DNA of 64,000 nt, taken from assembly GCF_015277895.1 (NCBI RefSeq), contig NZ_CP063815.1, forward strand, positions 2,542,001 to 2,606,000, written 5' to 3'. Shown here one piece after another: positions 3,970-36,799 of this stretch; within the stretch, counting starts at the first letter, position 1, and each line of letters starts with the position of its first letter. The notes below the pieces were generated by a model. That model was not told the DNA's origin. It made no database searches and saw only the letters and a program-made list of their open reading frames with translations. A program made the position numbers and the translations under genes. Origin of the DNA: Microbacterium abyssi. Its GTDB lineage: Bacteria > Actinomycetota > Actinomycetes > Actinomycetales > Microbacteriaceae.

Positions 3970-5414
3970 CGTCGGAACGTCCGTCCTATGCGCCGGACGA
4001 CCACACTCACTAGAGCTATGGGATCCTTCGCCGCGAGCTGCTGAGCTTTCACGATTCGCTGAACCAGCTTGTACCGCCGGGCAAGCGGAGCCATCCGACG
4101 GTCGAACGCTGCTAGTTGCGCCACCCGCACCGCTTCGACAAAGGCTGTGTGACTCTCTCGCGAATTCGCGAGCCGAACCCGCTGGGTGAGGCGACGCGCG
4201 AGCGATAATTTCGCGGGCAGAATGGTACGACGGACGGTCGGCGTACGCTCGTCGCGACGTCTCAAGTAATCGAAGCGATAGGGAATTTCGGTAACGCTCT
4301 GCCTGACCAGCGAAGCCTGAGACGCCACAATGTCACGGAGCGGAATCGTCTCCAGGTGGAGCCGCCCGGTCGTCCGCCCCTCCTCAAACAGCGGCAGCAG
4401 CCGCGCGTCGCGCACAAGGACGACGTTCGTCCCTCTTCCATCCGGGGTGTACCGCGGCAACCACGCATCGCCTAGCACGAGGTCAGCAGTCTCATTGAGG
4501 GCATCCTGCGTGAAATCGGAGAAGTTGCTCTTGAAGAATCCGAGCCCCCAGTCGGTGCCGAAGAGCTCGGTCTGCGGTACGACCTTCACCTGCTCGACGC
4601 CATTGATCACTCCGCAGAGCTCAGTGGAGTAGCGGTTCGCCGGCTCCCCCATGACCTTCTTGCGGAAGTCGATCGATCTCAAGGTGCCGGGCTGCACACC
4701 GCCGCGCCACGCGAGATACGCCGCGTAGTTTGCCGACTTCTGATGGCCGCACACCAGGCCGATCGTAAACACGATGCGTTCCTGGAACAGGGGCTCGATT
4801 CGCTGCAGGAGACGCAGCTCATAGATGAAGCTCGGAATTCCGACGACCGCGTATCGACCAGGTACTTCACGAATCTCCCGCAGAACGGCGCTCAGCTCGC
4901 CTGGGTAATACCGAGTCTTCGCCCCCGACCGCACCTGGTCGATCGTCCTCGAAACCTGATAGGTGAAGAGTTGCCCATCCGGGCCGCCGTCTCGTAGGTG
5001 GATGACACCATCGATGTCACCACGATCCATCAACTCGCACAACACCCATGTAGCGAGACCACCCGAGCTGCCCTCAGAACGAGTATCGGCCTCGGCGACC
5101 CAGCCCGCAAATGTGCCTACGTGGTAGCCGGCGATCGAATCGTGCTGGACGCCGTCCTGGTCCCCATAGCGCTCACGTGCGACCTCATCCTCGTTCGGAG
5201 CAACCCCACCGAACGCCGATACTTGCAACAACTCGCTGGAGGGACCGCGATAGTGCTCATCAAGGCCCACATACTCGTACTCACCGCGCTCATTGAGGCG
5301 CATCGACAAGCTGGGGTCAATCCCCGCGTAAACGCCACTGTTCGTCGACAGGCCTGCACCGATCACGCCGTCTAGCAACTGCCGCAGGTGTGTATCGTTC
5401 ACTCGTGATCTCAA
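3966..5414 (-). CDS. FrhB-like (coenzyme F420 hydrogenase beta-subunit family) protein without Fe-S cysteines
   Basis: The fold markers of the FrhB/FdhB family are clear: SEGSSGGLATWVLCELMDRG, a segment reading AVVGIPSFIYELRLLQ, TIGLVCGHQKS, and ETADLVLGDAWLP. Family members in polysaccharide clusters, often next to pyruvyl transferases, normally have N-terminal CxxCxxC clusters, a GIPC motif and paired cysteines before GDAW. Here the expected sites read IGAGLSTNSGVY, GIPSF and GLGFFKSNF, and only three cysteines remain in 482 residues. The protein probably no longer binds Fe-S clusters but may keep flavin or act structurally. Translation could start at TTG 5414, which overlaps the stop of a small leader ORF, or at GTG 5402. 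The stop shares CTAG with the flippase. Confidence 0.75.
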   Translation of the reverse strand: MRSRVNDTHLRQLLDGVIGAGLSTNSGVYAGIDPSLSMRLNERGEYEYVGLDEHYRGPSSELLQVSAFGGVAPNEDEVARERYGDQDGVQHDSIAGYHVGTFAGWVAEADTRSEGSSGGLATWVLCELMDRGDIDGVIHLRDGGPDGQLFTYQVSRTIDQVRSGAKTRYYPGELSAVLREIREVPGRYAVVGIPSFIYELRLLQRIEPLFQERIVFTIGLVCGHQKSANYAAYLAWRGGVQPGTLRSIDFRKKVMGEPANRYSTELCGVINGVEQVKVVPQTELFGTDWGLGFFKSNFSDFTQDALNETADLVLGDAWLPRYTPDGRGTNVVLVRDARLLPLFEEGRTTGRLHLETIPLRDIVASQASLVRQSVTEIPYRFDYLRRRDERTPTVRRTILPAKLSLARRLTQRVRLANSRESHTAFVEAVRVAQLAAFDRRMAPLARRYKLVQRIVKAQQLAAKDPIALVSVVVRRIGRTFRR

Positions 5415-5464
5415 CCTTGTCGAATCGCGGCCCCGCTCCGCGATCGGAGAGGAAGCAACCCCAT
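5411..5464 (-). promoter_or_regulatory. GGGG-loop leader element of the FrhB-like gene, with a 17-codon ORF
   Basis: On the minus strand a perfect 7-bp stem, ATCGCGG paired with CCGCGAT (plus-strand 5424-5430 and 5438-5444), displays the loop AGCGGGG. A start-like ATGGGG lies at 5464. It opens a 17-codon ORF whose TGA overlaps the TTG at 5414. The hairpin therefore lies inside the small ORF. The layout matches the other G-loop leaders in this window; whether the small ORF is translated is unknown. Confidence 0.45.
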
Positions 5465-5560
5465 GTCAACGCAGGTGCGCAACGATCCTTAGCCTAGATC
5501 CGGAAAGCCGCCGCGTTCGATTCAGGTCACTGCTCGGTCGACTCGGCCAGCTATCGTGGC

Positions 5561-7333: not shown

Positions 7334-7415
7334 TGGCTAAGGAAATCCGTGGTCGCCAGGGGATGAATCTGTGCCCAGGCGAGTTTCGGAATACAGATAA
7401 TCCGGAGGGGACCTC

Positions 7416-7988: not shown

Positions 7989-8001
7989 CACACAGTTCCA
8001 A

Positions 8002-8041: not shown

Positions 8042-8230
8042 GTCTGTGTCGGCTTCGTCCGCTCCTCCGCGCTCAATTGCCCCGCGAAGGGCCGCTCCAT
8101 GGCCCGCGATGGGCGCTCGATGGCCCTTGGAACGGGCCACTCAACGAACATTCAGAAATCTGTCGCTTTTCTCTACCCATCACGTTCGGGTTCCGCTAGT
8201 GTGAGCGATATCCGAACTGCCTGGCAGTGA

Positions 8231-8373
8231 GCGTCGACTGGGAACGACGCGCACATCGTGATTTGGGATCACGGGTCAAGCGACATCACAAGGGGTTGTG
8301 ATGACGGATGCCCCGCACGTATGGGACGTGCGGTACTGGGGATGAAACTGGGGAAGCAATGTCGCACTGGGGT
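8231..8373 (+). promoter_or_regulatory. Four-hairpin G-loop leader of the initiating sugar transferase gene
   Basis: Four successive perfect hairpins each expose G-runs. They are GCGTCG/CGACGC (8231-8236, 8245-8250) with loop ACTGGGAA; CGTGAT/ATCACG (8257-8262, 8268-8273) with loop TTGGG; CATCACAA/TTGTGATG (8284-8291, 8296-8303) with loop GGGG; and CCGCACGT/ACGTGCGG (8313-8320, 8326-8333) with loop ATGGG. Three unpaired TGGGG boxes follow at 8337-8341, 8349-8353 and 8368-8372. The arrangement resembles RNAs that titrate or receive an RNA-binding protein, as in CsrA/Rsm systems. No such protein is visible here, and CsrA is not generally known from actinobacteria. Confidence 0.6.
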
Positions 8374-8409
8374 ATGCGTACATGCGCCGCTCGGGGTGTT
8401 CGGGCATGA
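8359..8409 (+). CDS. Putative 16-residue leader peptide MSHWG-1
   Basis: The small ORF encodes MSHWGMRTCAARGVRA and ends in a TGA that overlaps an ATG of the sugar transferase gene (ATGA at 8406). It has a GGGGAAG ribosome-binding-like sequence upstream. A second ORF of exactly the same length, also starting MSHWG, lies at 10653-10703 in the next long leader. Translation could couple to the downstream gene or be sensed by the ribosome. The shared 15-base start could instead be conserved as RNA or DNA, so coding status is uncertain. Confidence 0.4.
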   Translation: MSHWGMRTCAARGVRA

Positions 8410-9935
8410 CGTCCGTAGAGAACGCTCTGAGCATTACGCGCGAGGAATCGGCCGTGATCTCGGCGACCGTTCCGCGCGTCCGGGTCGAGACGACCACGGC
8501 GTCAATGCCGCGCGTCTCGGCGACGCTGGAGCACCGTCTGCACTGGGAACGGGCGCACCGCGTCCACCTCGGTCTTACGGACGCTACCGTGATCGTGATC
8601 GCCATAGGCATCACGGCCGGCATCCAGCTTCATCTAGGTGAACCGCCCGCGAATGTCGCGACGCGAAGTGCCCTTCTCGCAGCTGCCTGGTTCGCCATGC
8701 TGCTCGTGATGCGCACTCACGACGCGGCACTTTTTCGTTCGAGCGCAGACGAGTACAGAGGCATCGTGCATGCCTCCGGCCTCGCCATCGGAATGATGGC
8801 GGTCGTTGCCGTTCTTCTCGACTGGGACTCGACGCGGCTCACCGTGCTCATCACCCTCCCCTCCGGCCTGCTCGGCCTGCTGATGAGTCGGTGGTCGTGG
8901 CGGCGTTGGCTGAGCAACCAACGCCGCCATGGCCGACTCACATCGCGCACCCTCGTGGTCGGCAACCGCGACGAAGTCGAGTATGTGGCCGCAGCTCTCG
9001 AGCCGATCGGCATGGCCGGTTATCAGGTGGTGGGCGCCACTCTGCTCGACGGAAACGCCCGTGAACTCGACCTCGGCGGCACGACGGTACCGGTACTGGG
9101 CAACCTCGAGACCGTCGCGCAGGTCGCGGCCGAACTCAAGGCCGACACGATCGTCGTCGCCGGTCATCCAGAGTGCGACCCGGACTTCGTCAAACGGCTC
9201 GGCTGGGAACTCGAAGGAACCGCCGCGGAGCTGGTGCTCTCGAATCGCCTCGCTGATGTCGCAGGGCCCAGGCTGTCATTCTCGCCAGTCGAGGGACTGC
9301 CGCTGATCAAGGTTCAGATACCGACCTACGAAGGTGGCCGGCACGTCCTCAAGCGCGCCCTCGACATCGTCGTGTCAGCTCTTGCGCTGATTCCGATCAT
9401 CGCGGTGACACCGGTGCTCGCGCTGCTGATCAAATTGGATTCTCCCGGTCCCGTGTTCTTCTTCCAAGAACGCGTGGGCCGGGATGGGAAGCCCTTCCAG
9501 ATGGTGAAGTTCCGGTCCATGCACGCGGATGCCGAGCAGAAGCTCGCCGCACTGCAGGCGGCGAATGAAGGGGCCGGACTGCTATTCAAGATGAAGGACG
9601 ATCCACGCGTCACCCGCATCGGGAGGGTGCTGCGCAAGCTGTCACTCGACGAGCTGCCACAGTTCTGGAACGTCTTCGCCGGTGAGATGAGTGTCGTCGG
9701 ACCTCGCCCGCCGCTGCCGAGCGAAGTCAGCGACTACGACGGCACTGTCTCGCGTCGTCTGTACATCAAGCCGGGCATCACCGGCCTCTGGCAGATCTCG
9801 GGCCGCAGCGACCTGAGCTGGGATGAGAGCATCCGCCTCGACCTGCGCTATGTGGAGAACTGGTCGGTCATCACCGACCTGCAGATCATGTGGCGCACGG
9901 CCAGGGTGATGGTCGCGCCGAAGGGGGCCTATTGA
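8406..9935 (+). CDS. Polyprenyl glycosylphosphotransferase, WcaJ-like initiating sugar transferase
   Basis: This integral membrane enzyme transfers a sugar-1-phosphate from a nucleotide sugar to undecaprenyl phosphate, the first step of repeat-unit assembly. The N-terminal half has four membrane segments and a CoA-binding-like Rossmann region (TLVVGNRDEVEYVAAAL). The C-terminal catalytic domain (PF02397) is complete: KRALDIVVSALALIP, SPGPVFFFQERVGRDGKPF, KLSLDELPQFWNV, SVVGPRPPLPSE and KPGITGLWQISGRS. Length (509 residues) is typical. ATG 8382 would add eight residues. I prefer 8406 because the leader-peptide stop overlaps it and a GGGGTG sequence lies seven bases upstream. The long G-loop leader suggests post-transcriptional control of this committed step. 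Confidence 0.88.
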   Translation: MTSVENALSITREESAVISATVPRVRVETTTASMPRVSATLEHRLHWERAHRVHLGLTDATVIVIAIGITAGIQLHLGEPPANVATRSALLAAAWFAMLLVMRTHDAALFRSSADEYRGIVHASGLAIGMMAVVAVLLDWDSTRLTVLITLPSGLLGLLMSRWSWRRWLSNQRRHGRLTSRTLVVGNRDEVEYVAAALEPIGMAGYQVVGATLLDGNARELDLGGTTVPVLGNLETVAQVAAELKADTIVVAGHPECDPDFVKRLGWELEGTAAELVLSNRLADVAGPRLSFSPVEGLPLIKVQIPTYEGGRHVLKRALDIVVSALALIPIIAVTPVLALLIKLDSPGPVFFFQERVGRDGKPFQMVKFRSMHADAEQKLAALQAANEGAGLLFKMKDDPRVTRIGRVLRKLSLDELPQFWNVFAGEMSVVGPRPPLPSEVSDYDGTVSRRLYIKPGITGLWQISGRSDLSWDESIRLDLRYVENWSVITDLQIMWRTARVMVAPKGAY

Positions 9936-9960
9936 TCATCGCTTCAACACGCTGAAGATC

Positions 9961-10028
9961 GCGCCATCGGGGCGCCGGCGGATGGGGATCCGCTGCGAGA
10001 GACAGAAGATCTGGGGAGTTCATGGGGA
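9961..10028 (+). promoter_or_regulatory. G-loop leader element of the cytidylyltransferase gene
   Basis: In this intercistronic stretch a 5-bp stem GCGCC/GGCGC (9961-9965, 9971-9975) with loop ATCGG is followed by the perfect 6-bp hairpin GCGGAT/ATCCGC (9978-9983, 9988-9993) with a pure GGGG loop. Two TGGGGA boxes follow, at 10012-10017, where it also serves as the ribosome-binding site, and at 10023-10028, overlapping the ATG itself. A protein bound to these boxes would block initiation directly; that is inference. Confidence 0.5.
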
Positions 10029-10465: not shown

Positions 10466-10528
10466 GACGCCTGTCAACCCGCGCACCGCTGAGGAGCCCG
10501 AGCGCATCATTCGGGCCAATTGAAGACT

Positions 10529-10667
10529 GCGGATGCCGTAGGGGACGCGCATCCGCTCCGTGATCTGGGGGTCACGGCAGGCAGCGCCGAGGGGTCGGCG
10601 TTGTCATCACGGTCGGCCGTTGACAACGGCCGACCTGGGGAAATGGGGAGATATGTCGCACTGGGGT
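10529..10667 (+). promoter_or_regulatory. G-loop leader of the WcaI-like glycosyltransferase gene
   Basis: The first hairpin is GCGGATGC/GCATCCGC (10529-10536, 10549-10556) extended by CGT/ACG, with loop AGGGG. Next come CCGTGA/TCACGG (10558-10563, 10572-10577) with loop TCTGGGGG, and CGCCGA/TCGGCG (10585-10590, 10595-10600) with loop GGGG. An 11-bp stem (10611-10621, 10625-10635) with loop GAC follows. TGGGG boxes lie at 10636, 10644 and 10662. It parallels the leader at 8231-8373, including the shared 15-mer ATGTCGCACTGGGGT at 10653-10667. Confidence 0.6.
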
Positions 10668-10703
10668 TTGGACACATCGAAAATTCGTGGAGCTTCGCAA
10701 TGA
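10653..10703 (+). CDS. Putative 16-residue leader peptide MSHWG-2
   Basis: The ORF encodes MSHWGLDTSKIRGASQ. It has the same length as the ORF at 8359-8409, with matching M-S-H-W-G, T, R and G positions. The Arg and Gly codons differ only synonymously (CGT against CGG, GGA against GGT). Its TGA overlaps an ATG at 10700, again as ATGA. Outside the first 15 bases the two ORFs match at only about half of the positions, so shared length and phase argue for translation. Two copies are thin evidence. Confidence 0.4.
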   Translation: MSHWGLDTSKIRGASQ

Positions 10704-10834
10704 CCTCTGCAGGGGGAGTCGCAAAGCAGATCTGCGGCGGCAGGAGAGGCACTGCCGCCGCACCACGAGCCCCGCGCGCGGTGCCCGACACTGTCGTGGT
10801 GCCGCGCGCAGCCCCGACACCGAGAGCGCGGTGA
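10700..10834 (+). CDS. Possible 44-residue Arg/Ala-rich small ORF in the leader
   Basis: This ORF begins at the ATG overlapping the stop of the MSHWG-2 peptide and ends four bases before the ATG of the glycosyltransferase gene. The product starts MTSAGGVAKQICGG and continues rich in Arg, Pro and Ala with no recognisable domain. Its position suggests stepwise translational coupling from peptide to small ORF to enzyme. It could equally be a chance open frame in GC-rich leader DNA. Confidence 0.25.
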   Translation: MTSAGGVAKQICGGRRGTAAAPRAPRAVPDTVVVPRAAPTPRAR

Positions 10835-10838: not shown

Positions 10839-12062
10839 ATGACGACCGCGTCGCCGGATCGCTCGGTACTCTTCGTGGGCGTCAACTATGCTCCCGAGCC
10901 GACCGGGATCAGTCCTTATACGACGGGCATGGCAGAAGGTCTCGCTCAGCGCGGACATCACGTCCGCGTGATCACGTCGTACCCGCACTACCCGTGGTGG
11001 CGGGTGCCTGACGATCACGCCACGCTGCCGCCGGACGGGGACGTCAATGGTGTGCGAGTCACGCGCATGCGGCACTACATCCCGCGGCACCCGAACAGCC
11101 TCCGCCGCGCCCGGTTCGAAGTGTCCTTCGGCCTGCGCGCGCTGTTCACCCGCTGGGGCAGGCCGAGCGTGATCGTCGTGGTCTCCCCCGCTCTGCTGGC
11201 GTCGCGGGTGGTCGTTTTGCGTGCGCGCCTTCAGCGCATCCCTGTCGTCACCTGGGTCCAGGACATCTACACGCTCGGCGTCGGACAGGCGTCCGACGGA
11301 CGAGGAAGCCGTGCGATCGCGCGCGTCGAGCGCAGCCTCGCCGACGCCGCCGCGCGCGTCGTGGTGATCCACGATCGGTTCCGCGGCATGTTCCTCGACG
11401 GCGTGGGAACATCCACGCCGATCGATGTCGTGCGGAACTGGTCTCACGTGCCCGACGTAGGCGATTCGAATCGCGCCGCGACCCGTGCTCGCCTTGGATG
11501 GGCTGACGACGAGATCATCGTGCTGCACGCGGGGGCGATGGGGGCCAAGCAGGGGCTCGAGAACGTCGTGTACGCCGCACGGGAGGCCACCCGCCGCGGG
11601 TCACGAGTCCGGTTCGTGCTGCTCGGCGACGGCAACCAGCGGCAGCACCTGGAGTCTCTCGGAGACGACCCGAGTCTGCAGTTCGTGGACCCGCTGCCGG
11701 ACGACGAGTTCTACGACGCGTTGGCAGCTGCAGATGTGCTCCTCGCGAACGAGCGGCCCGGTCTGACGGAGATGTCCGTGCCGAGCAAGCTCACCACGTA
11801 CTTCGCAACCGGCCTTCCGGTCGTGGCCGCGGTCGACGCGTCCAGCACGACTCACGATGAGATCGTCGCGTCAGGTGCCGGACCGATCGTGCCCGCCGGA
11901 GACCCGGTTGCTCTTGTCGACGCGATCGAGACGCTGGCCGACCAGCCCGCGACCGCGGCCGAACATGGGGCCGCGGGGCGCGCGTACCGAGCCGCCCATC
12001 TGACACCGGATGCCGCCGTGGACGCATTCGAACGGACGCTGGCGAGTGCAGCCGGAGCCTGA
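10839..12062 (+). CDS. GT4 glycosyltransferase, colanic-acid WcaI-like
   Basis: The 407-residue enzyme has the GT-B layout of family 4. Its N-terminus, FVGVNYAPEPTGISPYTTGMAEGLAQRGH, is the hallmark of WcaI-type transferases. SYPHYPWWRVP and VTWVQDIYTLGVGQ follow in the acceptor domain. The C-terminal donor domain shows VLHAGAMGAKQGLENVVYAA and a late E-x7-E-like region around ANERPGLTEMSVPSKL. It should transfer a sugar from a nucleotide donor to the lipid-linked oligosaccharide on the cytoplasmic face. It is convergent with the ligase gene that follows, separated by 21 bases. A very long G-loop leader precedes it. Confidence 0.85.
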   Translation: MTTASPDRSVLFVGVNYAPEPTGISPYTTGMAEGLAQRGHHVRVITSYPHYPWWRVPDDHATLPPDGDVNGVRVTRMRHYIPRHPNSLRRARFEVSFGLRALFTRWGRPSVIVVVSPALLASRVVVLRARLQRIPVVTWVQDIYTLGVGQASDGRGSRAIARVERSLADAAARVVVIHDRFRGMFLDGVGTSTPIDVVRNWSHVPDVGDSNRAATRARLGWADDEIIVLHAGAMGAKQGLENVVYAAREATRRGSRVRFVLLGDGNQRQHLESLGDDPSLQFVDPLPDDEFYDALAAADVLLANERPGLTEMSVPSKLTTYFATGLPVVAAVDASSTTHDEIVASGAGPIVPAGDPVALVDAIETLADQPATAAEHGAAGRAYRAAHLTPDAAVDAFERTLASAAGA

Positions 12063-19400: not shown

Positions 19401-20734
19401 GTGCCGTCGCTCGTGGCCTCGGCGCTGACGACCGGCGTGGGCGGCGCACCCGTGTCATCGGGGCCGAAGCGGGTGAGCCCCTGCTGCTCGTGCCCGTTGA
19501 TGCGCGTGAACTCGCCGCCGGACCACAGGTACTCCTTGCCCGTCGTCTTTCCGGTGACGACGGTCAGCCCGCGAGGACCGATCCCCTCGCCGTTGCCGTC
19601 GTTGCCCAGCGGCAGCCAGCCGAAGAACTCCATCGTCTCGGTGCTCTGTGCGCCGAAGTATCGGCGGATGCCGTCGGCAAAGGCGTTGATGCCGGCGCAG
19701 TCGTGGTGGTGGCTGGCCGAGTAGATCGTTCCTCCGCGGACGAGCAGATCCTGGACGGCACCGAGACACGTGTCCCGCCAGACCTGGTCACCCGTGTCCC
19801 ACGAGAACGCGGCTTTGCCGTCGAAGACGCCGCCTCCGCTACCCTCGTTGCCGATGTAGAAACGTCCGTCACCGCCGTCGACGATGGTCTTCGTGACCGA
19901 CGTGTCGGGGATGAACCCGGAGGCGTACGTACGGAGGACGTCTCCACCAGCGCCGTTCGGACCGCTCGCGCCGGAGACCATGGCGATCGAATGCGAGAAG
20001 ACCCCGTTGATCTCGAACAAGTCACCGCCGACGACGACCTTCGCGCCGTCCGGCGACACTTCGACGGCCCTGGCCTGAGCCACGGAGGACGGCAGGTTGG
20101 TGCGGGTGCGGACCGCGTTGGCCGTCCAGTCCAGTAGAGCGCCGGAGGTCGCGTTGAACGCGGCGAACGCTCTGCGCTCCGCGGATCCGACGGAGTTGAA
20201 CAGGCCGCCGGCGTAGAGACTGTTTCCGTGGACGGCCAGTGCCGTCACTGTGGAGCTGGGCAGCGGTGCGCGGAACGGCAGCACTGTGCAGGTCTCGATG
20301 TTCAGGGCCGCGATCCGAGCGACGTTCACGCCGCCGACGTTGGAGAAGTTGCCGCCGATGTACACCACCGACTCGTCCTCGCTCGCCTCCACCGCGCGCA
20401 CCGTGGGCGTGCCGCCCGAGAGTCCCATGCTGAACTGGCACTGATCCGGCACCCCGGTCTCGCCATTGAGGATCACCAGCGCGTTCTGGGACAGCGGTGT
20501 ACCGGGCTGTCCTGCGGGTGGTCTCACCTGCGAGAAGGTGCCGCCGGCGACGACCTTCCCGTTGGCTGCTCCGATCGCCCAGACGGTGCCGTTGGTCTGC
20601 CAGGTAGGCAGGTCTTCGGCGCTGAAGTCGACGCCCGACGACAACGCTGCTGCCGGTGTCGGTGGCTGCACTACGAGCAGACCCATGACCACTGCCGCGA
20701 CCGCAAAGGCGGCCGTCAAGTTGCGTGCGCGCAC
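13472..20734 (-). CDS. Giant secreted protein with propeller-like, LamG, FN3 and DNRLRE domains
   Basis: The 2420-residue product has a signal peptide (about residues 1-31, ending PAAAL). It then has a repeat region typical of beta-propellers (VWAIGAANGKVVAGGTFSQV, VVYIGGNFSNVGG), about residues 35-430. One FN3 domain, two LamG/concanavalin-type domains (about 540-1010) with YTVSAWVKTTTNRGG-type strands, and a string of about ten FN3 repeats with YRVVAVDAAGN ends follow. The C-terminal part alternates FN3 and DNRLRE (CBM96-like) domains, duplicated almost exactly. There is no LPXTG signal or terminal membrane helix. It probably binds polysaccharide outside the cell. GTG start; CTGGGGAATT lies just upstream. 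Confidence 0.85.
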   Translation of the reverse strand: MRARNLTAAFAVAAVVMGLLVVQPPTPAAALSSGVDFSAEDLPTWQTNGTVWAIGAANGKVVAGGTFSQVRPPAGQPGTPLSQNALVILNGETGVPDQCQFSMGLSGGTPTVRAVEASEDESVVYIGGNFSNVGGVNVARIAALNIETCTVLPFRAPLPSSTVTALAVHGNSLYAGGLFNSVGSAERRAFAAFNATSGALLDWTANAVRTRTNLPSSVAQARAVEVSPDGAKVVVGGDLFEINGVFSHSIAMVSGASGPNGAGGDVLRTYASGFIPDTSVTKTIVDGGDGRFYIGNEGSGGGVFDGKAAFSWDTGDQVWRDTCLGAVQDLLVRGGTIYSASHHHDCAGINAFADGIRRYFGAQSTETMEFFGWLPLGNDGNGEGIGPRGLTVVTGKTTGKEYLWSGGEFTRINGHEQQGLTRFGPDDTGAPPTPVVSAEATSDGTIQVHFRTVVDPDDDRLTYSVYRAGASAPIWQGTAKSLWWERPQVSFVDSAVTPGTNYTYRVTASDGTNTSGQSAPSSARAVAPADDYGRVVRALQPEAAWSGAAVGSWVVDESAGSTRSDAINGLLTDGASQVLGDSADATNTTAYSFDGSNDYIRSEILRPGPSTYTVSAWVKTTTNRGGKIVGFGNGRPNTGTNDSRLSGSYDRHLYMTNDGRVLFGVYNGSTVTLSSQTGLNDGDWHYLVGTQGSSGMKLYVDGVPVASNGVTNAQDYWGIWRAGGDQLSSWPSRPSSNFFSGLIDEVAIYPTAIGRVDVAALYQASGRTLETNTVPTDQYGATVFNDDPELYWRFDETSGPAEDSSLFALRPGDYGTDAERGVAGVLPENAAVRTSGDSSGTVATSQSLSPSSVFTAEAWFKTTTDAGGKIFGFENTPTGDGSAYDKHLYMTDDGRLVWGSWIGSAAVVTSADSYNDGVWHHVAAVIDSSGRKLIVDGQQVAQSGVTGAETGVGYWRLGGGNVGGWPNQPSSNYFDGVIDEFAVYAQSMSVAKAASHYEMGVTGADVPAAPAAVNAATAAGGVELTWEAADSGFGVQEYRIYRGTEADFAVTEDTLIGTSEELTFADESVAPGVVYYRVVAVGPGDKVGAPSDAVEIDVPDTTAPTTPDDLVAVVDENSVALSWSAATDDVAVTAYEVHRGETDDFEPSADTRIATITETSYLDAGRPAATAYYRIVVVDAAGNTSDASQTAEAIVPDVTAPTTPTGVTAITGGDPEIALTWTASDDDLEVTGYDVYRGSSPDFAVTDDAKIASVTATSYTDIGLTPGTWYYRIVALDATGNTSPPSEVASAEIADVTAPTVPVDLTATTAGNDVSLTWAAASDDVAVDRYEIHRGSATGFETSAATKIGESTSVSFTDADRPAGTVFYRVLAVDPTGNASLASESAEVSVPDVTGPTAPAVTALLVDGSVDLSWSGATDDVAVTGYQVHRGQSADFSASEATKIADATGTTYTDESATAGPWYYRVIAVDAAGNAGAPSASAEVIIPDTTAPTAPAGLAAAAAGEDVQLSWSASSDDVAVAGYEVHRSATAGFSPSEDTRVGTATETSFTDSGLAPGTWHYLVIAVDAAGNASAASNEATVEVLDIDDTAPSTPGDLATAVDATDVSLSWSAAGDDVGVTGYQVHRGSSADFPLTAGSLLATVTETTYLDGGRPAGNWFYRVTAVDAAGNVSVPSTAIEAVIADASGPSAPADVTVDVNGATADVSWAASTDDVGVTGYRVYRGATADFEVSAELMVDEVTGLTATEESVPAGTWFYRVVAVDGAGNVSLPSDTAEAIVADTSAPSLVAGVAALPGASGVTVGWQPASDDVAVTAYWVFRGTSADFVVSPENRIAQVTDVSYLDAAPSGTWYYRVVAIDAAGNTGPASDAAQASVVDVVAPSVPSGVAASVVGSGVVVSWSASTDDVGVVGYQVHRGSSAGFAVSEASKVADVTALSFTDAGRPVGTWFYRVVAVDAAGNASAASAEVSGAVVGSGEPVMVDVPVVDDAMVFGVMPNSNYGANTQLSSRGGTSPVQSFLSFDLPDAPAGMVLTGAELQVRTSTDPTASSADLHVVHLVSGAWSESGVTWSNRPTSEGAVLGSLGATPATNTAYAASLSAGALAGALGTQQTLRFSSSGSDNVRLWSSEASNTSYRPTLVLTFTPGSEPVVDVVAPSVPSGVAASVVGSGVVVSWSASTDDVGVVGYQVHRGSSAGFAVSEASKVADVTALSFTDAGRPVGTWFYRVVAVDAAGNASAASAEVSGAVVGSGEPVTVDVPVVDDAMVFGVMPNSNYGANTQLSSRGGTSPVQSFLSFDLPDAPAGMVLTGAELQVRTSTDPTASSADLHVVHLVSGAWSESGVTWSNRPTSEGAVLGSLGATPATNTAYAASLSAGALAGALGTQQTLRFSSSGSDNVRLWSSEASNTSYRPTLVLTFTPAQ
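13480..14290. repeat. Direct repeat, copy 1 of an 822-bp tandem duplication
   Basis: This 811-base copy matches 14302-15112 with an offset of 822 bases (274 codons). The only difference I found is G at 13974 against A at 14796, which changes Thr to Met. Each unit encodes one FN3 plus one DNRLRE domain, so the duplication keeps frame. Near identity means a recent duplication, or ongoing gene conversion. Confidence 0.9.
14302..15112. repeat. Direct repeat, copy 2 of the 822-bp tandem duplication
   Basis: This second copy is separated from copy 1 by 11 bases that encode the G-S-E-P linker. Upstream FN3 repeats in the same gene are clearly diverged from this unit, so only the last FN3-DNRLRE pair has been copied. 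Repeat number may vary between strains or collapse in short-read assemblies. Confidence 0.9.
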
Positions 20735-20822
20735 AATTCCCCAGAGTGCTCAGTCGCCGCGGACGGCGTACTCCCCATTTGACCCGCAAACGTTGCGGGG
20801 AGACGCTCTCCCACAAGCATCT
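20732..20822 (-). promoter_or_regulatory. G-box leader of the giant FN3 protein gene
   Basis: On the minus strand the stem AGATGC/GCGTCT (plus 20817-20822 and 20801-20806, one wobble) has loop TTGTGGGAGA. Then CCCGCAA/TTGCGGG (20793-20799, 20783-20789) has a three-base loop. TGGGGA boxes follow at 20778-20772 and 20743-20738, the latter 4-9 bases before the GTG start. The first box is part of ATGGGGAGT, which opens a 20-codon ORF running across the gene start in another frame. Confidence 0.4.
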
Positions 20823-23584: not shown

Positions 23585-23613
23585 GCTGTCCCCTCTCGCC
23601 GCCCCAGTCCGGC
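23585..23613 (-). promoter_or_regulatory. G-loop leader of the second flippase gene
   Basis: On the minus strand a 4-bp stem GCCG/CGGC (plus 23610-23613 and 23598-23601) has loop GACTGGGG, with the G-run again abutting the 3' stem. The ribosome-binding site GAGAGGGGAC follows directly. The stem is short, so the call relies on its similarity to the longer elements. Confidence 0.35.
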
Positions 23614-23707: not shown

Positions 23708-23776
23708 CGAGCGCCGTCCATGTGGACGTCATTGTGGGGATGACCGCCGGCGCTCGCCCTGGGGACGGAGACGGCC
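23708..23776 (+). promoter_or_regulatory. G-loop leader element of the AT3/double-SGNH gene
   Basis: A 9-bp stem CGAGCGCCG/CGGCGCTCG (23708-23716, 23748-23756) encloses two inner hairpins. One is CGTCC/GGACG, and the other is GTCAT/ATGAC (23728-23732, 23740-23744) with loop TGTGGGG. A TGGGGA box at 23760-23765 precedes GGAG and the ATG at 23777. The long outer stem makes a three-way junction possible. Confidence 0.5.
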
Positions 23777-26458
23777 ATGCTGGGAATGGCTTCGCGCTCA
23801 CGCATGCCGCGTGCGCACAGGGCCGTTTTCCGCGCCGATGTGCAGGGCCTGCGGATGGTCGCCGTCGTGGCCGTCATCCTGGATCACCTGCTGCACTGGC
23901 CCGCCGGAGGCTTCGTCGGCGTCGACATCTTCTTCGTGATCTCCGGTTTCCTCATCACCGGCCTACTGCTTCGCGAGCACGAGCGAACCGGCACCATTTC
24001 GTTCTCGGGGTTCTACCGACGGAGGATCAAACGCATCCTTCCAGCCGCGACGTTGGTGGTGATCCTGACCGTCGCCGCGAGCTACCTGCTGCTGAGCAGG
24101 GTGCGCGCCACGGACACCTTCTGGGACGGCGTATGGGCATCGCTCTTCTCAGCGAACTGGAACTACGCCGCGGAGGGCACCGACTACTTCCAGCCCGATG
24201 TCGCTGTCTCACCCCTGCAGCACTACTGGTCGCTGTCGGTCGAGGAGCAGTTCTACTTCGTCTGGCCGTGGCTGATGCTGCTGATCCTGTGGCTCGGCGC
24301 CAAGGCCCGTGCAGGCAGCTCGTCCCGGTCCTCCGTCTCGGTGCAGCTGGCGATCATTGCGATCATCGTCGGCTCATTCGTCTGGTCGATGTGGGAAACG
24401 GCCGCCTCACCCACTTGGGCTTACTTCTCCACGTTCTCCCGAGCGTGGGAACTGGGCATCGGCGCCGCCATCGCCGTGTTCGCGAAGTCGTGCGCGCGCA
24501 TTCCTGACGAGTGGCGGCCGGCGCTCGGGTGGCTGGGTCTGGTGGGAATCGGCATCTCCCTCTTCGTCGTCACCCCCGAGAGAACCTTCCCCGCTCCGTG
24601 GGGGCTCCTGCCCGTTCTGGCGACGGCGCTGGTCATCATCGCCGGGACCGGAGGCGAGCAGCGATTCCTCTGGCCGCTCACCAACCGTGTCTCCACGTAT
24701 GTCGGCGATGTCTCCTATTCACTGTACCTGTGGCATTGGCCGGTCATCGTTCTGATGTCGACGTACCTTCCGCTCGACACGGTGCCCAATCAGGCGATCG
24801 CGATAGCGGTCATCATCGGATGCTCCATCGGCTCCTACCATCTCGTCGAGAACCCGATCCGCAACTCAAGCTGGCTGGACGGACGCGTGAAGGCCACCTT
24901 CCGCAACCCCCGCGGATGGCGGCATCGTGGGCCGGTTCCGAAGCTCGTCGCCCTTTCGCTGACGTCGGTGGTCACGGTCGGCACGGTGGCATGGGCGCTG
25001 ATTCCGCAGGAGCCCCGCACTCCGATCAGCCCTCCGGAAGTCGTTTTCCTCGGGGATTCCTACACGGCCGGCATCGGCAGTGACGGCCCCGACTGGCCGA
25101 CTTCGGTCTCGGAGGAACTCGGCTGGAACGCCGTCAACCTCGCCGCCGGCGGCACGGGCTACGTCACCGAGGCCGGGGTCGAGGGGTGCGGAAAGGAGCA
25201 CTGCGGCGCATATCTCGAGCAGTCGGAGGCGATCACCGACGAGCCCGACATCATCGTCGTCGCGGGCGGCCGCAACGACCCCGCGGAGAGCATCGAGGCC
25301 GCCGCGCTGAAGCTGTTCACGTCCCTGCGGGACGCGCACCCGGACGCTACCGTCATCGCGCTTTCTCCCTGGGCGGATGACGACCCTCTGAACGAGGCGT
25401 TCACGGCGAAGTCTGCGGCGGTGCAGAAAGCCGCCGCAGGCGCGGATGTCATCTATGTCGACACGGGGCAGCCTTTCGTCGGGCACGCAGATCTCATCTC
25501 GTCAGACGGGGTCCATCCCAACGCCGCCGGGTACACGAAACTATCCCTCCTCCTCGCCCCGATGCTGGCCGAGGCGACAGGTCACTCCCCCACCGGAGTC
25601 GGGTCGCCGTCCGCGACCTCGGCGACCGAACGGCAGGATCAGGTGCGTGAAGCGCTGCGCGCGAAGGAATGGCCCGAGCTCACTCCGGCGGTCGACGAAC
25701 TCGGTGACGACGCGCGAGTGCCGGAGTGGGTGACCGATCACTGCCTCGACGTCGATGACAGCAACGCCGACGGCTGCGCGTACGGCGACGAGGGAGCCGA
25801 GCTCATCGCGCTTCTGGGCGATTCACACGCCATCAGCTACATGCCGACGCTGCGTGAAGCGTTTCCCGATCAGCGCATCCAGTCGCTGACATTGCAGCAG
25901 TGCCCCGCCGCGCCGGTCGCGGTCCAAGTGCGCACGTCCCAGGGCTCGTCGCCCTACCCGGAATGCGATGATCATCGGGCCTGGACGATGAAGTGGATCG
26001 GGACGCACAAGCCCCAGACGGTCGTGATCGTCGACACCTGGGATACTCCTACGCGGATGCCGGGCGAAGACACGGTCGACAAACTGCGCGAATACAAGTC
26101 TGCGCTGACCGATCTCGTCGGCCGTCTCACCGAGATGGGGTCGCAGGTCGTCGTCCTCGCATCCCCGCCTCCCGGGGAGAACCTCGTGGACTGCAAGACG
26201 CCGGCGAGCACACCGGGGGACTGCCTGCGGACGATGCCACGCAGCTATTCCGAGTGGACCAAGGCCACAGAGGACGCCGTCGCCGAAAGCGACGCCGCAG
26301 ACGCCCACTTCGTCAGAACCGACGCCTGGTTCTGCGCGACCGGAAGCTGCCCGGCCTTCGTCGCCGGCGTCGCGACCTTCGCTGACGGCAACCATCTGAC
26401 CGACGCCGCAGCCCGTGCGCTCGGCCCCCTTCTCGTACAGGCACTTTCCACGCAATAA
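23777..26458 (+). CDS. Acyltransferase-3 (OafA-like) fused to two SGNH domains
   Basis: The 893-residue protein has an N-terminal AT3 membrane domain: FRADVQGLRMVAVVAVILDHL, FVGVDIFFVISGFLITGLL, FYRRRIKRILPAAT, and HYWSLSVEEQFYFVWPW (about residues 15-370). Two extracytoplasmic SGNH units follow. The first starts at VVFLGDSYTAGIGSDG (about 420) and ends at SSDGVHPNAAGY. The second starts at IALLGDSHAISYMPTL (about 680) and ends at FADGNHLTDAAA. Related AT3-SGNH proteins usually have one SGNH domain and about 650-700 residues. It probably moves acyl groups onto the exported polysaccharide. Start ATG is supported by GGGGACGGAG upstream. Confidence 0.85.
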   Translation: MLGMASRSRMPRAHRAVFRADVQGLRMVAVVAVILDHLLHWPAGGFVGVDIFFVISGFLITGLLLREHERTGTISFSGFYRRRIKRILPAATLVVILTVAASYLLLSRVRATDTFWDGVWASLFSANWNYAAEGTDYFQPDVAVSPLQHYWSLSVEEQFYFVWPWLMLLILWLGAKARAGSSSRSSVSVQLAIIAIIVGSFVWSMWETAASPTWAYFSTFSRAWELGIGAAIAVFAKSCARIPDEWRPALGWLGLVGIGISLFVVTPERTFPAPWGLLPVLATALVIIAGTGGEQRFLWPLTNRVSTYVGDVSYSLYLWHWPVIVLMSTYLPLDTVPNQAIAIAVIIGCSIGSYHLVENPIRNSSWLDGRVKATFRNPRGWRHRGPVPKLVALSLTSVVTVGTVAWALIPQEPRTPISPPEVVFLGDSYTAGIGSDGPDWPTSVSEELGWNAVNLAAGGTGYVTEAGVEGCGKEHCGAYLEQSEAITDEPDIIVVAGGRNDPAESIEAAALKLFTSLRDAHPDATVIALSPWADDDPLNEAFTAKSAAVQKAAAGADVIYVDTGQPFVGHADLISSDGVHPNAAGYTKLSLLLAPMLAEATGHSPTGVGSPSATSATERQDQVREALRAKEWPELTPAVDELGDDARVPEWVTDHCLDVDDSNADGCAYGDEGAELIALLGDSHAISYMPTLREAFPDQRIQSLTLQQCPAAPVAVQVRTSQGSSPYPECDDHRAWTMKWIGTHKPQTVVIVDTWDTPTRMPGEDTVDKLREYKSALTDLVGRLTEMGSQVVVLASPPPGENLVDCKTPASTPGDCLRTMPRSYSEWTKATEDAVAESDAADAHFVRTDAWFCATGSCPAFVAGVATFADGNHLTDAAARALGPLLVQALSTQ

Positions 26459-30009: not shown

Positions 30010-30015
30010 CATATC

Positions 30016-30071
30016 CGGAGTGGGGCGCACGACTGGGCAATGGGGACCCTTCTTCACGATCGGGGAGGGTC
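30016..30071 (+). promoter_or_regulatory. G-box leader of the Wzz/BY-kinase gene
   Basis: Three G-runs occur (GTGGGGC at 30020, ATGGGGAC at 30040, TCGGGGAG at 30060). GACCCT (30045-30050) pairs perfectly with AGGGTC (30066-30071), leaving a loop that ends in CGGGG and hiding part of the ribosome-binding site. ATGGGGACC at 30040 opens a 17-codon ORF that overlaps the gene start in another frame. Confidence 0.45.
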
Positions 30072-32212: not shown

Positions 32213-32239
32213 GCTCGAACGACCAGGCGGGTGCCGCCG

Positions 32240-34249: not shown

Positions 34250-34301
34250 GGGGCCTTTCGGGTCCGCGTTCGGCGATCTCCGATGCTCGCGCACCGGTAC
34301 T

Positions 34302-34351
34302 CTCCCCCAAGAAGCTTACCGAGTATAACGTTTTGGCTACGCATAGGCCAA
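34302..34351 (-). promoter_or_regulatory. Putative promoter and weak G-loop hairpin of the GH71-like gene
   Basis: On the minus strand TTGGCC (plus 34346-34351) and TATACT (34322-34327) are 18 bases apart, a good sigma-70-like pair. The first transcribed bases can form CTTC/GGAG (34311-34314, 34302-34305, one wobble) with loop TTGGG. The hairpin is too weak to stand alone but follows the pattern seen elsewhere. Confidence 0.4.
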
Positions 34352-34360
34352 TCCCCGCGT

Positions 34361-35485
34361 TCAGGGGTGCGCCGAATACAGCTTCTCCAGTTCGTCGACG
34401 ACAGTCGACATACTCCTGTACTGCAAAACGGCATCTCGCCCTCGACGGCCCGCTTCGCGGGCCGCGACCGGGTCCGCGAGGAGAGCGGCGATGGCGGACT
34501 TCAGCGACTCCGGATGAGGGTCGACGACAGCGCCGGCACGATGCTCGGCGATGAAGCCAGCCAATCCGCACGACTTTGTGACGACCACCGGCAGTCCGAC
34601 GGACATGGCTTCCAGAACCGACATCGGATACGGCTCATTCACGCTCGGGAGCACGTAGATAGCGGCCTCCCTCATGCGCGCCAGCGTGGCATCCGGCGCG
34701 AGAGCGCCCTCCCACTTGACCTGATCACCGACCGCGGCCGTTTCGATGAGACGCGATACGTCCTCGCCGACTCCCTCGTCGGGGCCCACGAGACGGAACC
34801 GCGTTGCAGGGAAGTCAGCGGCCAGTTCGATCGCCACCTGCGCGAACATCAGGGGGTTCTTGCGCGGCGCCAGCCTGGCGAGGTAGAGCACCTCGCTCCG
34901 TTCCGGCCGCACGCGATCCTCGTCGGCATCGCCGGTCGTCGGCACGCCGTTCGTCAACGGCGCGAGTCGCGCGCCGCCGCGGCTGACCACCTCGAGAGAT
35001 CGCCGCTCTTCCGGAGTGAGATACGTGACCGCAGTCGCGTCGCGCAACGCCTGCCGCGTCACAGCCGCGTCCAGCGGAGCGGCGAGCGGATTCGACGACT
35101 CGTCGATCATTCCGTGCGTCTGCAACACGGTACGCACGCCCGCTCGCTGCGCCAGGCGCGCCGCGGGCAACGTGACCATGTCCCGCGCCGCGTGCACATG
35201 AACGATGTCGAACTCGCCCAGGTGCGATCGCAGCCCGCGCAGCAGCCCGGGCGACCACAGTCCGGCGAACCCAGCGCCGGGCAGGACGGTGCGAGCGGGG
35301 AAGAGGCGGGCGGGAATGCCTTCGATCTCCGCGGGAGGCGTGCCGTCATAACCGCGGAATCCACCCGCGAGCACGACATCGTGGCCGCGTGCGGCGAGCG
35401 CTCGGAGCTGGTTTACCGCGACACGAACCGGACCGCCGTACTCCCCGTGCGGGCTGACCAGCGTCACCACGCCAAGTATCTTCAC
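34361..35485 (-). CDS. GT4 family glycosyltransferase
   Basis: This 374-residue retaining glycosyltransferase has the GT-B fold. The N-terminus reads GVVTLVSPHGEYGGPVRVAVNQLRALAARGH, and VLQTHGMIDE follows in the acceptor half. The donor half contains LYLARLAPRKNPLMFAQVA and the E-x7-E region PSVNEPYPMSVLEAMSVGLPVV. It should extend the lipid-linked oligosaccharide. GTG 35485 overlaps the TGA of the acetyltransferase gene (GTGA), which fixes the start; the longer open frame reads into the neighbouring gene out of phase. The two genes form a coupled pair. Confidence 0.88.
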   Translation of the reverse strand: MKILGVVTLVSPHGEYGGPVRVAVNQLRALAARGHDVVLAGGFRGYDGTPPAEIEGIPARLFPARTVLPGAGFAGLWSPGLLRGLRSHLGEFDIVHVHAARDMVTLPAARLAQRAGVRTVLQTHGMIDESSNPLAAPLDAAVTRQALRDATAVTYLTPEERRSLEVVSRGGARLAPLTNGVPTTGDADEDRVRPERSEVLYLARLAPRKNPLMFAQVAIELAADFPATRFRLVGPDEGVGEDVSRLIETAAVGDQVKWEGALAPDATLARMREAAIYVLPSVNEPYPMSVLEAMSVGLPVVVTKSCGLAGFIAEHRAGAVVDPHPESLKSAIAALLADPVAAREAGRRGRDAVLQYRSMSTVVDELEKLYSAHP

Positions 35486-36033
35486 GGTGCCACCGACACC
35501 TGCGCCCGCGGCGCGAGAACGATCGCACCGGCATCGACGTCCCTCGTGACGAGCGCCGTGGCGCCAACGATCGCATCGGCTCCGACGGTGACACCGCGCA
35601 GGACCGTCGCTCTCGCGGCGATCCACGCTCCGTCTTCGACGTGGATCGGTGCGTTGTCGAATTCGAACGACGGGGAACGGTGGTCGTGGCTTCCCGTGCA
35701 GAGGAATGCCGCCTGTGAGACGCAGACGTCGCTGCCGATGCTGATCGGCTCGAGGTTGAGCAGCCAGACCCGTTCGCCGATCCAAGAGTCGTCACCGATC
35801 TCGAGCTTCCAAGGCCAGTGAACGCGCACCCCAGCACGGAGATTGACGCCCGTGCCGATCGTGGCGCCGAAGCTCCTCAGCACGGCGACCCGAACACGAG
35901 GAGGAACGAACCACGGCATCACCAGCAGGCTCGAAGCCAGTTGCCATGCCGCCTGCCACAGCAGGTTGCGCCCCTTGTCGTAGCCTGTGCCTTCAAACTT
36001 CCCCAGCCTGCGCCTCGTCCCCATATTGGGCAT
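35482..36033 (-). CDS. WcaF-like hexapeptide O-acetyltransferase
   Basis: The 183-residue protein matches colanic-acid WcaF acetyltransferases. It has KFEGTGYDKGRNLLWQAAW at the N-terminus and then the left-handed beta-helix with IGTGVNLRAGVRVHWPWKLEIGDDSWIGERV. LCTGSHDHRSPSF contains the likely catalytic histidine. It would add acetyl groups to a sugar before flipping. ATG 36033 and ATG 36024 are both possible. The second lies in ATGGGGACG, the same start-codon context as the cytidylyltransferase gene. Divergent from the lipoprotein gene with only about 34 bases between starts, so promoters must overlap the coding ends. Confidence 0.85.
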   Translation of the reverse strand: MPNMGTRRRLGKFEGTGYDKGRNLLWQAAWQLASSLLVMPWFVPPRVRVAVLRSFGATIGTGVNLRAGVRVHWPWKLEIGDDSWIGERVWLLNLEPISIGSDVCVSQAAFLCTGSHDHRSPSFEFDNAPIHVEDGAWIAARATVLRGVTVGADAIVGATALVTRDVDAGAIVLAPRAQVSVAP

Positions 36034-36067
36034 ACTACTGGACCCCGTGATCTGCGACACTGGCTCC

Positions 36068-36436
36068 ATGATCACGTCACGAGCGGCAGGAAGACTGCTG
36101 TTGATCGCCGCCGCATCATTGGTGCTGAGCGGTTGTTTCGGCGACGCGACGCCTGCCCCGCAGGAGTCGGCGTCGACGGTCAAGACCATCGATGAACTGC
36201 AGGACTCAGAGGTTCAGCTCGCCGTGGGAGAGACACTCGGTGTCGACACGCTGGGACAGGACTCGTCCGTGTACGACGCAATGATCCTCGACGGCAGCAT
36301 CGCCGCGTATCAACCCTCGCGAGACGGAACCCAGATCCGAATCGAGGCCGTTGCCGCCGGAACGACCGATGTGCTGCTCGGCGACCCTGACGAAAGCGTC
36401 GACGAGGTGTCGTTCACACTCACAGTCACTAAGTAG
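36068..36436 (+). CDS. Small lipoprotein of unknown function
   Basis: The 122-residue protein starts with a lipoprotein signal: RAAGRLLLIAAASLVLSGC, with the lipobox LSGC at about residues 20-23. The mature part is acidic and rich in Val, Asp and Thr, and ends in an immunoglobulin-like strand (VSFTLTVTK). No family is recognised. ATG 36068 is chosen since it begins the signal peptide; a longer frame upstream overlaps the acetyltransferase gene. It is divergent from the acetyltransferase and is the last gene before a gene-free stretch. Confidence 0.75.
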   Translation: MITSRAAGRLLLIAAASLVLSGCFGDATPAPQESASTVKTIDELQDSEVQLAVGETLGVDTLGQDSSVYDAMILDGSIAAYQPSRDGTQIRIEAVAAGTTDVLLGDPDESVDEVSFTLTVTK

Positions 36437-36675
36437 CCGTACGCACCGACGTCGATCTGCGCCGGAGACCGTGAGCAGCTGGCCGGAGGCGCCTCGATCG
36501 CCGTGATGACATCTCGGCACCCGGTGCCGTGATCTCGGTGATGCTTCCTCCTCGACCGCTGGTGCTGATGGATCGCGGGAGCTGCGTTCAGACCGATCGC
36601 ATCCTGCTAGCCAACAGCGTCCGGCCAGCGGCCGACCGCGGCGACGCGCGCCTCGCGCGAAGCCAACAAACCCAC

Positions 36676-36799
36676 GTCTTTTCTCCCCCAGGGTCCCCAA
36701 ACCCTGCCCTCTGGAACGCCGAAGAGACCCCCCTAGCCAAGGTCCAACGACGTTTCAGTCGAACCTGCCTCGAACGCTCGGATCACGCTCGGAACAAGT
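36676..36799 (-). ncRNA. Candidate G-loop small RNA without a downstream gene
   Basis: Reading the minus strand from about 36799, a hairpin GGACC/GGTCT (plus 36741-36745, 36725-36729, one G-T pair) has loop TTGGCTAGGGG. A second perfect hairpin CAGGGT/ACCCTG (36701-36706, 36689-36694) has loop TTGGGG, followed by CTGGGGGAG. The loops have the same 3'-G-run placement as the EPS gene leaders. No minus-strand gene starts within 600 bases downstream, so a stand-alone RNA is possible. Existence of the transcript is untested. Confidence 0.35.

Follow-up and report, generated by a model that had tools for sequence, protein, structure and literature searches.

A conserved multi-hairpin leader on exopolysaccharide genes of Microbacterium and a candidate partner RNA with complementary C-rich loops

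We analysed a stretch of 64,000 nucleotides of the genome of Microbacterium abyssi (G000:C1:2542001-2606000, called the window below; the genome, G000, is a single contig of 3.27 Mb) and, within it, the leaders of the genes of an exopolysaccharide (EPS) cluster. On the evidence set out below we consider it likely that these leaders are the receivers of a trans-acting small RNA (sRNA), which would pair with G-rich boxes in them and repress the genes. The cluster lies at 5-36 kb of the window: genes for a sugar transferase, a cytidylyltransferase-like protein, a glycosyltransferase, an acyltransferase, a Wzc-like protein and a phosphatase were assigned with Pfam, and flippase-, polymerase- and gmd/fcl-like genes were recognised by eye only. 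A preliminary description, made from the letters of the window, had placed hairpins with G-rich loops on EPS genes, and the Pfam assignments bear it out. The EPS-initiating sugar transferase (Bac_transf domain in Pfam, 8406-9935; positions without a prefix are those of the window, on the forward strand unless marked (-)) has its closest named relatives in Microbacterium sp. Bi121 and M. aerolatum (85%), M. murale (82%) and M. ihumii (77%), and homologues were found in 113 of the 119 genomes of our genus set (E <= 1e-60).

The sugar-transferase leader is conserved as an RNA structure, in which the stems covary and the loops and boxes stay. It was studied in an alignment of 27 leaders (A1), 24 of which come from genomes of the genus set. 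The RNA occupies 8209-8405, its 5' end being presumed, and is preceded by a putative -10 element, TAGTGT (8197-8202), proposed from the alignment, where TANNNT stands in all 24 of the 27 rows that reach this place. Four hairpins follow one another: HP1, GCGTCG-ACTGGGAA-CGACGC (8231-8250), and HP2, CGTGAT-TTGGG-ATCACG (8257-8273), both with the GGG of the loop kept in 27/27 leaders, HP3, CATCACAA-GGGG-TTGTGATG (8284-8303), with GGGG kept in 26/27, and HP4, CCGCACGT-ATGGG-ACGTGCGG (8313-8333), with GGG kept in 19/27 and a two-sided change in 7 of its 8 pairs. Three boxes come after them: box 1, CTGGGGA (8336-8342), complementary to the sRNA loop UCCCCAG and beginning with CTGGGG in 25 of the 27 leaders and with TTGGGG in 2; box 2, CTGGGGA (8348-8354), which serves a leader peptide as ribosome-binding site; and box 3, CTGGGG (8367-8372), inside the reading frame of that peptide. 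The GGGG of all three boxes is kept in every one of the 27 leaders. The stems of HP1, on the other hand, vary from GGATGCTGCT/AGCAGCATCC (genome G076) to CACCGT/ACGGTG (G060), with the G-run retained. Counting on the structure of a single sequence (that of G060, 44 pairs, 1128 cells), we found 87.9% of the cells paired and a two-sided change in 29 of the 44 pairs, against a shuffled mean of 15.0; the covariation score is 0.286, compared with 0.141 for the shuffles, none of which reached it in 500, and with at most 0.077 when the partners were slid. This confirms what the preliminary description had read from the window, namely a conserved RNA structure whose stems vary and whose loops are kept. 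The outer stems are clear in the G060-like leaders and in that of Bi121; the leader of M. abyssi itself fits 28 of the 44 pairs, a poor fit which, we think, comes partly from misalignment.

The claim of an RNA element holds for the covarying hairpins but not for the most conserved stretch of the leader, ATG-(T/A/G)CG-CAC-TGG-GG (TGTCGCACTGGGG). This stretch opens a short open reading frame (ORF), MSHWGMRTCAARGVRA* (8359-8409), absent from the preliminary description, which is in frame in 27/27 leaders, reads M[S/T/A]HWG followed by 11-12 residues, and ends in a TGA overlapping the ATG of the sugar transferase. Judged by this frame, the invariant TGTCGCACTGGGG is protein-coding and not a pure RNA motif. 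Since the stop of the leader peptide overlaps the ATG at 8406, we place the start of the sugar transferase there; conservation makes it likely that this, and not 8382, is the true start. A second ORF of the same kind, MSHWGLDTSKIRGASQ* (10653-10703), which resembles the sugar-transferase leader of G036, stands before the glycosyltransferase, so that the leader together with the start region looks like a portable module. It overlaps the start of an ORF of 44 codons (10700-10834), which begins with MTS as sugar transferases do, lies before the glycosyltransferase at 10839, and is apparently a remnant N-terminus carried along with the leader module. A further sugar-transferase gene of M. abyssi (2536264-2537553) has no CTGGGGA box in the 390 nt examined.

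The candidate partner was recognised first upstream of EPS leaders, on the opposite strand, in five relatives (G118, G025, G067, G031 and G013), in which its loops read UCCCCAA. In M. abyssi its gene, of about 150 nt, lies outside the window, about 156 kb downstream of its end (G000:C1:2761954-2762101, - strand), with the same architecture but with UCCCCAG loops: UCCCCAG, UCCCCAG and GUCCCCAAU, the third with UCCCCAA. In the predicted fold an outer stem surrounds two C-loop hairpins and is followed by a long terminator-like hairpin bearing the third C-loop; the folding z-scores are -5.4 for M. abyssi and -4.5 for G118. We used model-based alignments of the sRNA; RNAalifold on a gapped MAFFT alignment gave a poor consensus. 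In the alignment fitted to the model, in which one of the 51 rows is a spurious antisense row, 88.9% of 1990 cells are paired and 33 of the 42 pairs show a two-sided change, against 21.2 after shuffling, with a covariation score of 0.366 (0.140 shuffled, reached in 0 of 500; at most 0.075 when slid). CCCC is kept in 49/50 copies in loop 1 and in 50/50 in loops 2 and 3; in the stem columns before the terminal hairpin the majority share is 0.64. At the start of the sRNA stands a promoter-like CTGACA-18-TACCAT (1 found, 0.1 in shuffles), and TACCAT recurs there in many of the relatives examined. The next gene downstream on the same strand (L037:10533-10955, without a Pfam match) seems, by eye and in the copies examined, to have a -10-like site of its own a few bases before its ATG, and for this reason we take the sRNA as a separate unit, read-through being the alternative.

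A first model of the sRNA, built from the five relatives named above and M. abyssi, matches 59 of the 119 genus genomes. These comprise 24/24 genomes of the leader alignment, of which only M. abyssi had been used in building the model, and 35 of the 95 others. A refined model (R2, from 50 matches) finds it in 70/119. Many genomes of the genus have two or three matches, some differing in the letters of the loops (UCCCCAG versus UCCCCAA), and a few of the extra ones are weak matches on the opposite strand of a copy. Over the family, R2 matches 4 of 299 genomes, all in the genus Microbacterium, with 10 candidates scored per genome, which makes the absence elsewhere a weak one. Over 514 kb of the M. 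abyssi genome it finds the sRNA and two weak matches, on the sRNA's own other strand and at 57419-57527 (-) of the window (E 0.034), which we take as chance. The preliminary description had recognised no named RNA family in the leaders, and neither leader nor sRNA matches Rfam 15: the three tRNAs of the window aside, all matches stayed under the gathering scores and were at chance level. Between 5000 and 37000, a search up to E 10 gave a single match of this sort, to mir-341 (E 0.47), which lies outside the listed leaders. Neither RNA is described in the titles or opening abstracts found by literature search. As far as these listings go, the RNA family and its built-in receiver leader are new; the principle is already known.

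The two RNAs are complementary in the loops of the one and the boxes of the other: CTGGGGA is the exact reverse complement of two of the sRNA loops (UCCCCAG), and all three loops are complementary to leader boxes, two of them exactly. The third loop, in the 3' terminal hairpin, is complementary to the G-runs of boxes at ribosome-binding sites. Predicted duplexes of UCCCCAG have energies of -11.2 to -13.2 kcal/mol with five boxes, the whole set of 20 loop-box combinations spans -9.1 to -17.0, and the sRNA loops are 0.84-1.0 unpaired in the predicted fold. The boxes also occur in doublets (TGGGGA-N0-30-TGGGGA): 12 exist in the 3.27-Mb genome, of which 7 in the window, as against 2 genome-wide for the reversed control pattern. 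The listed leaders hold six of the seven; the other one (about 36000-36023, -) is, by eye, in the apparent first codons of a hexapeptide-transferase gene, and one of the five outside the window, at 2762039, is the opposite strand of the sRNA gene itself. Within the genus the excess of doublets over the control is 10.7 in the 65 sRNA-positive genomes versus 6.0 in the 44 negative ones (p = 6e-4).

The type of the loops follows the type of the boxes in part, which is supportive but not decisive. This was counted in the 54 genomes having both parts, a few of them without countable boxes, and with the strand opposite the sRNA masked; the association is weaker after masking than in the unmasked count. 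The 37 genomes whose first two loops are only UCCCCAG have 83 C-type, 5 T-type and 6 other boxes; the 5 with only UCCCCAA have 9 T, 9 C and 2 others; the 12 with mixed loops have 20 T, 11 C and 8 others. The pattern CTGGGGA-N2-12-RTG has 88 matches genome-wide versus 56 for its reversed control, and all five within the window (8348, 10011, 10635, 20744 (-) and 23759) are starts of EPS-region genes or of leader peptides, in agreement with the earlier statement that the TGGGGA boxes often stand at ribosome-binding sites. Of the 88 places, 30 were checked by script, with flgN in addition, and two of the 30 passed a strict gene-start filter (L294 and L306), L288 and L291 being among the narrow misses. 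One site outside the window precedes the start of flgN (PF05130, E 1.1e-17; L038:9796-9830, -), where CTGGGGGATGCTGGGGAAGGGATTATG holds CTGGGGA. It would tie motility to the EPS regulator; it is a single site and maybe due to chance.

Several observations weigh against pairing between the sRNA and the leaders. The three sugar-transferase boxes of M. abyssi are just 0.23-0.48 unpaired in the predicted fold, and the complementarity of the hairpin loops (UGGG, GGGG) to those of the sRNA extends to 4-5 bases only, so that simple pairing does not explain their conservation. The difference in box types between UCCCCAG-only and UCCCCAA-only genomes (Fisher p = 1.9e-5) carries no phylogenetic correction, and in the latter 9 of the 18 C-or-T boxes are of C type, which means an A-C mismatch. 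The 7-mer CTGGGGA alone does not single out targets. The terminal stem of the sRNA, strong as it is, has no T-run, and a terminator scan finds none. The refined model has no match in 49 of the 119 genus genomes, at 26 candidates scored per genome, and several of the sRNA-negative genomes still have TGGGG boxes upstream of the sugar-transferase gene. Finally, the box excess is somewhat larger, if weakly so, in genus genomes that encode the RNA-binding protein CsrA than in those that do not (11.5 versus 8.0, p = 0.056).

Four things were computed here: the structures of leader and sRNA, their complementarity, the leader peptide that overlaps the gene start, and the occurrence of both RNAs in the same genomes. 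From these we infer the following course of events. Once transcribed, the sRNA would use its loops to pair in the cell with the CUGGGG boxes, three of them in the leader of the sugar transferase and others before further EPS genes. Ribosomes would then be kept off the leader peptide and, at the other boxes, off the starts of the genes; through translational coupling the sugar transferase would share the block on its leader peptide. The outcome would be repression, which would lower at once the initiation of EPS, the control of its chain length and its decoration. The GGG hairpin loops probably add weaker multivalent loop-loop (kissing) contacts holding both RNAs together. A bolder form of this proposal, which we put forward tentatively and hold to be less likely than not, is a module of two RNAs, in which the three-loop sRNA docks on the receiver leader by several simultaneous contacts, as an RNA-only analogue of CsrA/RsmZ in which the stems of either RNA drift and the loops do not; in Microbacterium it would turn entire EPS clusters on or off, perhaps flgN too, and in some species would be tuned by a G-rich sponge-like RNA. 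With the sRNA, the GGGG-loop leaders gain a concrete candidate for a partner and a mechanism that can be tested.

A second, G-rich RNA-like unit lies between the sRNA and the EPS leader in G067 (L191), G118 (L189), G025 (L190) and G031 (L194). It has TTTGGGGA boxes, a TAATAT promoter-like site and a strong terminator-like stem, similar units were seen by eye in G079, G054 and G047, and it is possibly a sponge. A palindrome, TGTCCCCC-NNNN-GGGGGACA with changes allowed, stands beside 15 of 70 sRNA stretches, 13 times upstream (for example L244, L274 and L276) and twice downstream (L246, L247). The same palindrome is found in 4 of 70 leader regions (G047, G079, G118 and G054), where one copy in G118 separates the sRNA from the G-rich unit that diverges from it, and no copy was found in either the window or L037; it is probably the operator of a transcription factor.

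We scanned both strands of the window for hairpins with a perfect stem of 6 bp or more and a loop of 4-8 nt containing GGG. Twenty such hairpins were found, 8 in the leaders listed by the preliminary description and 12 elsewhere; 7 of the 8 lie on the sense strand of the EPS genes, inside 2.4 kb. Besides HP1-HP4 they are GCGGAT-GGGG-ATCCGC (9978-9993) in the leader of the cytidylyltransferase-like gene, CCGTGA-TCTGGGGG-TCACGG (10558-10577), CGCCGA-GGGG-TCGGCG (10585-10600), and ATCGCGG-AGCGGGG-CCGCGAT (5424-5444, -) before a gene with an FrhB/FdhB domain. The hairpins thus exist where they had been announced, and these eight are perfect; in the leaders 20732-20822, 23585-23613 and 30016-30071 the boxes are present but the hairpins are imperfect, short or long-looped. 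For a comparison of the kind proposed at the time, we took eight leader intervals (807 nt, mostly slightly wider than the original ones) and counted 8 hairpins with a stem of at least 5 bp and a loop ending in GGG, versus 0.11 expected from 340 kb of the same genome on both strands, and versus a mean of 0.20 and a maximum of 2 in 300 dinucleotide shuffles. As the intervals were chosen post hoc for being striking, these ratios are inflated, and the independent test is the conservation in relatives. CTGGGGA is the most over-represented of 685 7-mers in the EPS leaders (6 versus 0.024 expected). Over the whole window, single TGGGGA (30 versus 25.3 expected) and single CTGGGG (33 versus 33.6) are not enriched.

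CTGGGGA at 10011-10017 is at the ribosome-binding site of the gene starting at 10022, and the second leader peptide has its ribosome-binding site at CTGGGGAAATGGGGA (10635-10649), which holds two boxes. On the other strand, CTGGGGA at 20738-20744 (-) is the ribosome-binding site of a protein of 2420 amino acids with CBM96, laminin-G and fn3 domains; in the leader 20732-20822 one box is, by eye, able to pair with an upstream CTCCCC. In the leader of the acyltransferase, at 23708-23756, an outer stem CGAGCGCCG/CGGCGCTCG, seen by eye, surrounds the hairpin GTCAT-TGTGGGG-ATGAC (23728-23744), and CTGGGGA follows at 23759-23765, upstream of the start at 23777. The Wzc-like gene (start 30072) has in its leader a TGGGGA (30041-30046) beside a long-loop hairpin GACCCT/AGGGTC. 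Two further hairpins were noted elsewhere: a perfect one, CAGGGT-TTGGGG-ACCCTG (36689-36706, -), in about 450 nt without an obvious gene, and, in L034:2600-2830 (G000:C1:about 97600-97830), GTCGCT..GCGT-GGGG-ACGC..AGCGAC with CTGGGGATGCGTGGGGA, between apparently convergent genes and next to a strong terminator-like stem.

The fixed loops and varying stems of HP1-HP3 are also the signature of a loop-binding protein, the chief alternative to the kissing contacts proposed above. Such a protein might recognise GGG in the hairpin loops, the C-rich sRNA being incidental or likewise protein-bound, and the short match of the hairpin loops to the sRNA, together with the silence of covariation tests on the nature of the binder, speaks for it. 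Under this explanation, however, the 7-nt complementarity and the presence of the sRNA in all genomes of the leader alignment would be a coincidence, and we hold it to be unlikely; CsrA is the candidate protein that was searched for. Somewhat less likely still is an action in cis only, the leader being an attenuator by way of its leader peptide (MSHWG...) or the G-rich boxes being ribosome standby sites, with no RNA in trans. The universal frame of the peptide, its kept M[S/T/A]HWG and its stop on the gene start fit this well, as does the place of the boxes at ribosome-binding sites; it leaves unexplained a separate RNA with three complementary loops and the fixed loops well upstream of the leader peptide, and a standby site is expected to favour GGAGG over GGGG.

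The preliminary description had set CsrA aside as not to be expected in these bacteria. This reason fails, because the M. abyssi genome has csrA (PF02599 match, E 3.9e-18, at 2498717, close behind a flagellar gene which reads by eye as flhA), fliW (FliW at 2468617) and flagellin genes (2474302 and 2469441), and because one flagellin leader (L038:12240-12300; G000:C1:about 2474240-2474300) has a perfect hairpin GAAGCCCA-CGGA-TGGGCTTC and CACGGAGGA before the ATG, features which we take to be those of a canonical CsrA target. The G-rich motifs in loops and at ribosome-binding sites of the EPS leaders resemble Csr/Rsm targets too, and the weak difference in box excess given above points the same way. 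Nevertheless csrA was found in 57 of the 198 genomes searched, and a PF02599 match is missing in 8 of the 24 leader-alignment genomes and in 48 of the 70 sRNA-bearing ones; on this phylogenetic distribution we rejected CsrA as the general binder. In the genus genomes, doublets are in excess over the reversed control whether csrA is absent (14.1 versus 6.1, n = 85) or present (18.2 versus 6.6, n = 24), csrA is no significant predictor of the box excess among sRNA-positive genomes (13.1 versus 9.7, p = 0.13), and the HP3 loops have GGGG followed by T, without GGA. That CsrA, balanced by FliW, binds the leaders is thus improbable. A protein-binding DNA repeat or chance G-richness, to which the lack of window-wide enrichment of single boxes would be congenial, is hardly credible in view of the compensatory stem changes, the G-runs on the sense strand and the hairpin excess. 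G-quadruplexes were set aside (the G-tract of HP4 is lost in 8 of the 27 leaders), as were, on architecture, LoaP/RfaH antitermination and ANTAR.

Pairing of the leaders with the sRNA, which we prefer, has to be compared with known systems. In the Csr/Rsm system, with CsrA and its sponges CsrB/RsmZ, G-rich motifs in loops and at ribosome-binding sites are likewise found on EPS genes, and coupled control through a short upstream ORF is known. The motif there is ANGGA, unlike the leader loops GGGG, UGGG and CUGGGA described here (the M. abyssi flagellin leader does have CGGA); moreover, csrA was not found in many of the genomes bearing the element, and the candidate partner is a complementary RNA. 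The CsRNAs and RsaE of Gram-positive bacteria aim C-rich single-stranded loops at Shine-Dalgarno sequences; the Microbacterium sRNA comes from a different phylum and has another architecture, without an Rfam match. EPS elements of the RfaH/LoaP type are conserved hairpins heading polysaccharide genes, which act on transcription elongation of long operons, whereas each Microbacterium leader has several hairpins and boxes at ribosome-binding sites. The 6C RNAs are defined by hairpin loops of six or more C. The sRNA loops of M. abyssi have four, as against the six to nine of 6C; in certain copies of the G118 type, the first loop has six or seven. We rejected membership of the sRNA in this family (RF01066), since its model had no match in the M. 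abyssi genome, where 150 of 1011 candidates were scored, none at E <= 0.5 in 14 loci, of which six hold the sRNA, and none at E <= 10 in five sRNA loci.

The closest likeness is nevertheless with this 6C/B11 sRNA, which is known from mycobacteria and reported too in Streptomyces coelicolor and Corynebacterium glutamicum (PMC9569102). In Mycobacterium marinum, the C-rich terminator loop of B11, whose hairpin loops have six and nine C, acts on G-tracts near the ribosome-binding sites of lipooligosaccharide genes and represses them, as loop and compensatory mutations indicate (PMC12395582); in Mycobacterium abscessus, B11 affects the surface phenotype, and the same mode of pairing is reported for eccB4 (PMC10470900). 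Both are short structured actinobacterial sRNAs with C-rich loops, one of them in a terminator-like hairpin, complementary to G-runs at ribosome-binding sites. The targets differ: in Microbacterium they are arrays of covarying GGG-loop hairpins with an overlapping leader peptide, whereas the descriptions of B11, in the parts of these papers available to us, speak of G-tracts near the ribosome-binding site only. The authors of the B11 work state that computational target prediction is inaccurate in GC-rich mycobacteria (PMC12395582). If our proposal is true, the control of the cell surface by sRNAs with C-rich loops, as in mycobacteria, extends to EPS in another actinobacterial group, and its targets there are themselves conserved multi-hairpin RNAs, which could allow targets to be found from sequence.

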